Assembly (NCBI GenBank): GCA_013216025.1
Contig: JABSOG010000012.1
Location: forward strand, 1 to 46,921
Length of the DNA stretch: 46,921 nt
Direction of reading: 5' to 3'
Source of the DNA: Algicola sp.
GTDB lineage: Bacteria; Pseudomonadota; Gammaproteobacteria; Enterobacterales; Alteromonadaceae
Each line of letters opens with the position of its first letter. Position 1 is the first letter of the stretch. A model generated the notes under the pieces. It saw only the letters and a program-made list of their open reading frames with translations, made no database searches and was not told the DNA's origin. Position numbers and translations under genes: made by a program. This document shows, piece after piece, positions 40,082 through 42,520 of the stretch.

Positions 40082-40864
40082 TCAAAACCGGATATCACCA
40101 ATCAACCCTAGCTCAATCCACTGTTGCAAGATAGTGAGCGCTCGCATCGCAACTTCATCTTCGCCATGAAAGTTAAGCAACGCATCACACATATCGGCAA
40201 AATCGCCGCCTTTCAATGCCAAATCCAGCAACATCGCTTCATCAGGTTCCATCGACCTGAACTCGGTTAGCCGCTCTGGGTTACGCCATAATATCCACAG
40301 CGTTGGTGTTGTTAACTGCTGTGGTGGTGGCGGTTGTTTTTCTTGCTTGAGCATTTGCCAGCTTTGGACGCAGTTCCAATGGGCCCCAAAGCGTTGTACG
40401 CAGGGTCTGAATCGCAATTTCATCGTCGGCCAACTTTGTGGCGGGATGGTGCCGAGTTTTTCAGGACCCACTGCGGTGGCATCGGCAGCATCAAAGGCGT
40501 TGATCAGAATTTGTTCAAAGGCGGCCAGCTCTGCCAGTATCGGATGCTCAGAGAATGGTGCGTTATCCCGTAAAAACTGGGGAATATGTTGGCAAAAATC
40601 GCGTAAAGACGGATAACTTGAGGGATATTGTTCGATGTAAGCCGGCACCATCTGGTCAAACAGGTCATCGCCTAGATAACTGCCGAGTATCGGGTGATCG
40701 CTGTCAATGGTTTCGCGTAAACGAGAGATATAGGCGTTTTGGTATATTCCCAGCCGGGTGCTGGTGGCTACGGGTTGCTGGCTTTTGATGTGTTTGGTCA
40801 TTTGACTGGGTTTACCCTGTAAAAACGCCATAAAATCCTGTTGAATGGTTTTTAAATCAGACAT
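40082..40864 (-). CDS. DUF2063/HvfC-BufC-type MNIO partner protein
   Basis: QQDFMAFLQG, TRLGIYQNAYISRLRETIDSDHPILGSYLGDDLFDQMVPAYIEQYPSSYPSLRDFCQHIPQFL. Confidence 0.9.
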   Translation of the reverse strand: MSDLKTIQQDFMAFLQGKPSQMTKHIKSQQPVATSTRLGIYQNAYISRLRETIDSDHPILGSYLGDDLFDQMVPAYIEQYPSSYPSLRDFCQHIPQFLRDNAPFSEHPILAELAAFEQILINAFDAADATAVGPEKLGTIPPQSWPTMKLRFRPCVQRFGAHWNCVQSWQMLKQEKQPPPPQQLTTPTLWILWRNPERLTEFRSMEPDEAMLLDLALKGGDFADMCDALLNFHGEDEVAMRALTILQQWIELGLIGDIRF

Positions 40865-41718
40865 TGATACTGGCCTCTCGATTGCTCTCGATTGCTCTCG
40901 GTCAGTGCCGAATGCGATAGGGCTCTGGCGTGATCGAGTTCTTTTTCAAGTTCGGCAAATGGGGGAATATTATCATCGCGTTCGATCATGGTGCTGACCG
41001 GTCCCATCAGTTTGATGGTTTCTTTGTATAATTGCCAAACCGGATCGCGCACCGCCTGGTCGTGAGTATCTATCACGTAATCGCCGTAATCTGTGTGGCC
41101 TGCCAGATGAATTTGCTGAACCCTGTTTGGGTCGACCGCTTGAACGTACTCCATCGGGTCAAACCCATGGTTACGGGCGCTGACATAGATATTATTGACG
41201 TCAAACAGCATCAGGCAATCGGCCTGTTGGCAAATTTGATTGATAAATTCCCATTCGCTCATTTCATCGCTTTGGTAGGTCAGGTAACTGGAGGCATTTT
41301 CTAACAACATTTGTCTGCCGAGAAAATCCTGCACCTGCTTAATCCGTTCGACAACATGTTTGAGTGCTTCTTCGGTATAAGGCATGGGTAATAAATCGTG
41401 GCTGTTGACGCCGCCAATGGTGGTAAAACACAAGTGGTCAGATATCCATGCTGGTTGAATTTCGGCGGCCAGCGTGCGCAGGCTTTTAAGATAATCCATG
41501 TTCAGGGGGTCGGTGCTGCCGATGGACATCGATACTCCGTGCATCACAATTGGATAGTCTTGACGAATGGTTTCAAGGTAATGACGGGGCTTGCCACCGC
41601 CGACCATGAAGTTTTCAGAAATGACCTCAAACCAGTCAACTTTGGGTTTGTGTTCTATCACATGATGGAAATGGTCGGTGCGCAGGCCCAACCCAAATCC
41701 AAGGTTTTGTTTTTTCAT
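40852..41718 (-). CDS. DUF692 multinuclear non-haem iron oxygenase (MNIO), BufB/HvfB-like
   Basis: GFGLGLRTDHFHHVIEHKPKVDWFEVISENFM, MLLENASSYL, LMLFDVNNIYVSARNHGFDP, IHLAGHTDYGDYVIDTHDQAV, MIERDDNIPPF; ATG at 41718. Confidence 0.93.
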   Translation of the reverse strand: MKKQNLGFGLGLRTDHFHHVIEHKPKVDWFEVISENFMVGGGKPRHYLETIRQDYPIVMHGVSMSIGSTDPLNMDYLKSLRTLAAEIQPAWISDHLCFTTIGGVNSHDLLPMPYTEEALKHVVERIKQVQDFLGRQMLLENASSYLTYQSDEMSEWEFINQICQQADCLMLFDVNNIYVSARNHGFDPMEYVQAVDPNRVQQIHLAGHTDYGDYVIDTHDQAVRDPVWQLYKETIKLMGPVSTMIERDDNIPPFAELEKELDHARALSHSALTESNREQSRGQYQCLI

Positions 41719-41733
41719 ATCATACTCGTTTAC

Positions 41734-41987
41734 CCTCAGGAAACCACGTCCTTCGGCAATTGCTCCATGCATTGCTCTAATCAGCACTTCCATGTGCAAA
41801 TGTGAGGTTTCCTGAGGACGCTGCGTTCACAGTAAATTGCTCCTGCATTTACTGCATTCAGTCCATCCATGGACATCAAGCAAGTGGAACTTCGCTCAGT
41901 TTTTTTCAACATGGACGTTGTATATGCAGAAATTGCAGGAGCAATATTTCAGTCAATAAATTGAAAACGCGGCACATCCGTGTGCCG
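41734..41987. repeat. Nested inverted repeats between precursor and MNIO gene
   Basis: CCTCAGGAAACC/GGTTTCCTGAGG (41734-41745/41806-41817); ATTGCTCCTGCATTTACTGCA/TGCAGAAATTGCAGGAGCAAT (41836-41856/41925-41945); CGGCACA-TCCG-TGTGCCG (41970-41987). Confidence 0.85.
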
Positions 41988-42025
41988 CCTGGGCAAACGG
42001 TGATTTGTATTCTTATATTTGCAGA

Positions 42026-42520
42026 TTAAGCTTGGGTTTTGCCGCCGACATCACCACAGGCTGACTCGCCCATCATGACAAAACCGCTGCCTTTGCAAGA
42101 AGCGTGGCCTTTACAGGCGTTGTCGGCCGTTTTGCAGTCGTTATGACCTTTACAAACGTTGACTGAGTAACAATGGCTCAAATCAGCCGTTGATACGGTG
42201 CCGGTCCATTCTTGTGATACTGTGCCGCCGATGTCAGCACAGGATTTTGCAGGCATGGCAACAAACCCAGAACCTTTACACGAACCCTGACCTTTACAGG
42301 CATTGTTGGCGGCTTTACAGTCGTTGTGACCTTTGCATTGATTGACACTGTAACAATGAATCATGTCAGTTGTGGTTGCGGCCGTTGATGCCATGGCGCC
42401 ACCATCGGATGTTTGGGCTGTACTGCCGCATCCGGCTAGTGCTGCTGCGGCGAAAGCCAGCGCGGCTCCGGTCAATTTTTTGCTACTGTGTTTGATACTG
42501 TGTTTGTTTGGCGTGTTCAT
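42026..42520 (-). CDS. Cys-rich bufferin-type (BufA2-like) MNIO precursor with duplicated domain, putative lipoprotein
   Basis: LAGC lipobox; HCYSVNQCKGHNDCKAANNACKGQGSCKGSGFVAMPAKSC and HCYSVNVCKGHNDCKTADNACKGHASCKGSGFVMMGESAC; upstream of DUF692/DUF2063 genes on same strand. Confidence 0.85.
   Translation of the reverse strand: MNTPNKHSIKHSSKKLTGAALAFAAAALAGCGSTAQTSDGGAMASTAATTTDMIHCYSVNQCKGHNDCKAANNACKGQGSCKGSGFVAMPAKSCADIGGTVSQEWTGTVSTADLSHCYSVNVCKGHNDCKTADNACKGHASCKGSGFVMMGESACGDVGGKTQA

Follow-up and report, generated by a model that had tools for sequence, protein, structure and literature searches.

A Buf2 bufferin operon with a two-module, lipoprotein-type precursor in an Algicola genome

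In a 46,921-nucleotide stretch of Algicola DNA (referred to below as the window), a minus-strand gene cluster very probably forms the Buf2 bufferin operon (BufA2-BufB-BufC) of a marine gammaproteobacterium of Alteromonadaceae type, working in the manner proposed below. Bufferins are chemically modified, cysteine-rich proteins thought to trap excess copper, and the family concerned here, formerly Buf_6/12Cys, was named Buf2 in a 2025 survey (PMC12452194). A preliminary description of this DNA had recognized a bufferin-type locus in which a Cys-rich precursor is followed by DUF692 (MNIO) and DUF2063 genes, and had suggested that the precursor might be an undescribed variant. All three genes are present in that order (Table 1), their products match the BufA2 (NF050166), DUF692 (PF05114) and DUF2063 (PF09836) families, and the curated BufA2 and BufB models are exceeded well above their cutoffs. 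Gene identities, gene order, cysteine pattern, lipobox and conservation are thus established here; the description was right about gene content and anatomy but not about novelty, and the Algicola operon falls within an already described Buf2 subgroup, of which it is an ordinary representative.

Table 1. Positions of the operon's features in the window, and loci of related genes discussed in the text.
Feature	Position or locus	Strand	Basis
bufA2, two-module (12 core Cys) lipoprotein-type Buf2 bufferin precursor, 164 aa	42026..42520	-	NF050166; Cys positions; alignment with relatives
Lipobox LAGC, with precursor Cys31 as its last residue	42428..42439	-	Sequence; conserved in relatives
Cys module 1 (HCYSVNQCKGHNDCK...CADIGGT), 6 Cys	42221..42358	-	Sequence, NF050166
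Cys module 2 (HCYSVNVCKGHNDCK...CGDVGGK), 6 Cys, 72% identical to module 1	42038..42175	-	Sequence, NF050166
GC-rich hairpin then GTTTTC, directly after bufA; terminator-like site	41969..41988	-	Site scan; relatives versus shuffles
Inverted-repeat element of a dispersed family, between bufA and bufB	41734..41945	-	Repeat arms; genome matches; sister-species comparison
bufB, MNIO (DUF692, MbnB_TglH_ChrH) bufferin maturase	40852..41718	-	PF05114, NF050167; 3BWW alignment
bufC, DUF2063/HvfC-like partner	40082..40864	-	PF09836; NGO1945_C and NF050145 both below cutoff
Two-module BufA2 relatives without the lipobox Cys, Shewanella	L059, L092, L097, L106, L107, L111, L116, L120, L126		
Two-module BufA2 relatives without the lipobox Cys, remaining	L102, L121, L125		
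HvfA-like EGKCG precursor, HvfB-type MNIO and third gene at the DUF2063 position	L003 (G000:C468):940-3135		
807-aa protein overlapping a BufB-type MNIO gene, plus DUF2063 gene	L127 (G000:C739):905-5141		

The precursor scored 135.7 bits, in two stretches, against the NCBIfam model NF050166 (Cu_RiPP_BufA2), which has a curated cutoff of 60 bits. Its cysteines fall at residues 56, 62, 68, 75, 81 and 94 in the first module and 117, 123, 129, 136, 142 and 155 in the second. The modules carry CKG-type motifs, and all 12 cysteines are among the 45 columns that are invariant in an alignment of 20 diverse relatives. The two domains had been called near-identical, with six cysteines each; the cysteine count is correct, but with 33 of 46 residues (and 98 of 138 nucleotides) in common they are merely similar. 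An AlphaFold model of the precursor built from 20 sequences was of low confidence (pLDDT 57.7).

The lipobox noted earlier at the N-terminus (ALAGC) was located in the sequence, where an Ala-rich hydrophobic stretch precedes it and both modules lie C-terminal to it. A lipid-anchored, two-module product is the right prediction from lipobox and modules, and the lipobox pattern, together with its conservation, suggests that Cys31 is lipidated. In E. coli, the Lol rule holds that a residue other than Asp after the lipid-bearing cysteine leads to the outer membrane. This residue is Gly in the Algicola precursor, and Asp occurs there in none of the 66 relatives scored (from the best 80 of 214 loci; see below), so the rule predicts an outer-membrane protein, most likely on the periplasmic face.

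BufB gave 383.6 bits with PF05114 and 393.5 bits with NF050167 (MNIO_BufB; cutoff 310 bits), and alignment with the solved DUF692 structure 3BWW showed that it retains the HG, SDH, EN, DVNN, IHxAGH, DTH and ERD motifs. Its start is most likely the ATG at 41718, since a sister species is conserved from that point and the alternative TTG start at 41799, which would give a longer frame, lies within an inserted repeat that the sister species is without. The last 13 bp of bufB are shared with bufC. A DUF2063/HvfC partner (PME type 1) is expected to have an RRE-type domain C-terminal to DUF2063. BufC matched PF09836 with 65.5 bits, while its C-terminal NGO1945_C match (24.9 bits versus a cutoff of 27) and its match to NF050145 (HvfC-like partner, NCBIfam; 61.5 bits) fell below their cutoffs, and a phmmer search against PDB sequences returned no match at E 0.1.

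How these parts would work together can be outlined from published work on the family, from which the thiooxazole chemistry and copper function of the Algicola operon are predicted. In the cytoplasm, BufC would hand the precursor over to BufB, an iron enzyme, which would oxidize CKG-motif cysteines of each module to 5-thiooxazoles. The precursor would then be exported via Sec and anchored through lipidation of Cys31, and each modified module would bind and buffer excess Cu(I). A hairpin after bufA probably permits an excess of substrate over enzymes. From this work (PMC12452194, PMC12668002), Cys is expected to lose 4 Da on oxidation to 5-thiooxazole, and Cu(I) to be bound; for Buf2 members, cysteine modification would follow mainly by analogy with Buf1 and EGKCG relatives. 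In the literature searched, we found no experiment on the Algicola precursor or a close relative. The system could also be a real bufferin system whose product buffers zinc, mercury or iron instead of, or besides, copper: MerC-Buf2 fusions are known (PMC12452194), and profile searches recognized no copper genes among the neighboring genes checked. Since characterized bufferins use thiooxazoles to sequester copper and help cells to grow under copper stress (PMC12452194), we consider this reading unlikely.

To place the precursor among its relatives, 84,980 species genomes were scanned with an alignment of seven relatives, yielding 214 loci, the best 80 of which were kept; as their ranking reflects similarity to a query that itself has two modules, they describe the normal form in the clade rather than Buf2 as a whole. 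All of these best 80 precursors have two modules. A lipobox, scored by pattern, is present in 68 (66 with the strict pattern and two with Phe before the small residue, LFSC and LFGC), and the other 12, mostly from Shewanella, are without the lipobox Cys and have a regular Sec signal in place of it, so that lipid anchoring is not essential and the anchor varies within one family. The bufB gene lies directly downstream in 79 of the 80, and bufC is also present in 77, two of the remaining three loci being cut by contig ends. The two features that had been presented as non-standard are thus the usual form of this clade.

Both features had also been published. The 2025 survey reported six cysteines in 90% of Buf2 members and 12 in the rest (about 10%), modeled a 12-Cys member in which the 6-Cys domain is duplicated, and found lipoprotein signal peptides in about 16% of the family, members that may be membrane-anchored (PMC12452194); SPII signals have likewise been noted in a subset of bufferins and oxazolins (PMC12636315, citing PMC12452194). 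We therefore rejected the reading of the precursor as a novel variant, on this literature and on the survey of the best 80 of 214 relatives.

As stated in the preliminary description, no DoxX-like partner accompanies the operon, and none occurs in the window; four DoxX-family genes lie elsewhere in the Algicola genome. A neighborhood search with five DoxX queries found such a gene nearby in just 2 of the best 80 of 214 relatives, so its absence is normal here, and the idea that it is an oddity was rejected.

In a class-wide sample, 67 of 369 genomes exceeded the curated BufA2 cutoff, a count that leaves out many sub-cutoff matches, and the precursors there were mostly single-module. From 30 single-module loci, six were set aside as wrong-frame or incomplete, and two of the 24 readable precursors had a lipobox. 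Set against 68 of 80 two-module precursors (best 80 of 214), this suggests that duplication and anchoring tend to go together, in a comparison that ignores kinship. Module duplication and lipid anchoring in Buf2 might even have co-evolved to give an outer-membrane-tethered, double-capacity copper buffer whose anchor was lost in Shewanella; we regard this as doubtful, but if true the pairing would be a functional subclass that the literature found does not describe explicitly. The same contrast could be taken to mean that the two-module lipoprotein is no Buf2 variant but forms an undescribed class of metallophore, tethered to the membrane and distinct in function. That is highly improbable: both features are described in PMC12452194, the lipobox has been lost inside the two-module family with the same maturases downstream, and the two samples are not phylogenetically independent, the first being biased by its two-module query.

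The Algicola genome contains three MNIO genes in distinct operons, and the other two carry candidate substrates of their own (Table 1). Since the chemistry of the Algicola precursor is itself predicted, it might be supposed that the precursor is an unmodified Cys-rich lipoprotein (metal-binding or disulfide-containing) and that the adjacent MNIO acts on some other substrate, but this is scarcely credible given that bufA, bufB and bufC are adjacent in nearly all of the best 80 of 214 relatives and that none of 864 genomes has a Buf_6/12Cys gene without an MNIO gene (PMC12452194 Table 3).

One of the other operons encodes an 807-aa protein that has a ferritin-like domain (PF12902) at its N-terminus and a Cys-rich stretch, Buf2-like in its letters, at its C-terminus (HSCKGSNQCKGQGGCGFV); no signal peptide is evident. 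Two further genera of the class share this order of ferritin-like protein gene, MNIO and DUF2063 (L165, L166). The protein may be an MNIO substrate of an undescribed sort, an enzyme in place of a small peptide; among the papers listed on MNIO and DUF692, none mentions ferritin-like proteins. The operon, which lies on another contig, may merit a study of its own.

Within the Buf2 operon, the bufA-bufB gap holds two further elements. A strong hairpin stands at the same place in most bufA-bufB gaps of the relatives (L047-L126; 79 scored, from the best 80 of 214). We took the most stable hairpin within the 65 bases that follow bufA and used dinucleotide shuffles and coding stretches of the same genes as controls: the median was -16.2 kcal/mol in the 79 relatives versus -7.0 kcal/mol in shuffles, and coding sequence had a mean of -10.3 kcal/mol. 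Real gaps reached -14 kcal/mol in 72% of cases, shuffles in 3.7% and coding stretches in 12.7%. Because the sequences differ among relatives, position and structure are kept but sequence is not. The simplest reading is a putative attenuator or mRNA 3' stabilizer that would favor precursor over enzyme. A scan for sigma-70 promoters gave matches no more frequent than in shuffles.

Between this hairpin and bufB lies the inverted repeat, which has 47 matches in its own genome. The corresponding gap of the sister species (CALKGI010000090.1) is without this element, and that species' genome contains only short matches to it. Pieces of the same repeat family also occur between the EGKCG precursor and MNIO gene (C468:12534-12626; about 1311-1403 of L003). 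The repeat is common, so these two placements in MNIO operons may be due to chance.

Little turns on the Algicola copy itself, because its kind was described in 2025. Judged by the best 80 of 214 relatives, a two-module lipoprotein is what Pseudoalteromonas, Colwellia and their marine relatives normally carry, and culturable members of these groups would therefore suit a comparison of the protection given by lipid-anchored and soluble bufferins.

Together, these comparisons place the operon within Buf2 / Buf_6/12Cys (NF050166; PMC12452194), with which it shares the Cys pattern, the duplicated 6-Cys domains of the 12-Cys subgroup, a predicted lipoprotein signal like that of a Buf2 subset, and the operon with MNIO and DUF2063 genes. 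No defining feature differs; the sole addition is the repeat between bufA and bufB. Two Buf2 bufferins have been shown as AlphaFold examples in PMC12452194; one of them, apparently the member with 12 Cys and duplicated domains, comes from a different species, Cognaticolwellia aestuarii (WP_077285100; Fig. 3h). The sister species, a metagenome-assembled uncultured Alteromonadaceae (CALKGI010000090.1, L047), has a precursor 94% identical to that of Algicola and the same neighbors on both sides; the two differ in the repeat insert, which the sister species does not have, and in the hairpin that follows bufA. More distantly, the Buf1 (DUF2282) bufferins and HvfA/EGKCG metallophores belong to other precursor families, whereas the MNIO and DUF2063 chemistry that installs their thiooxazole is the same (PMC12668002).
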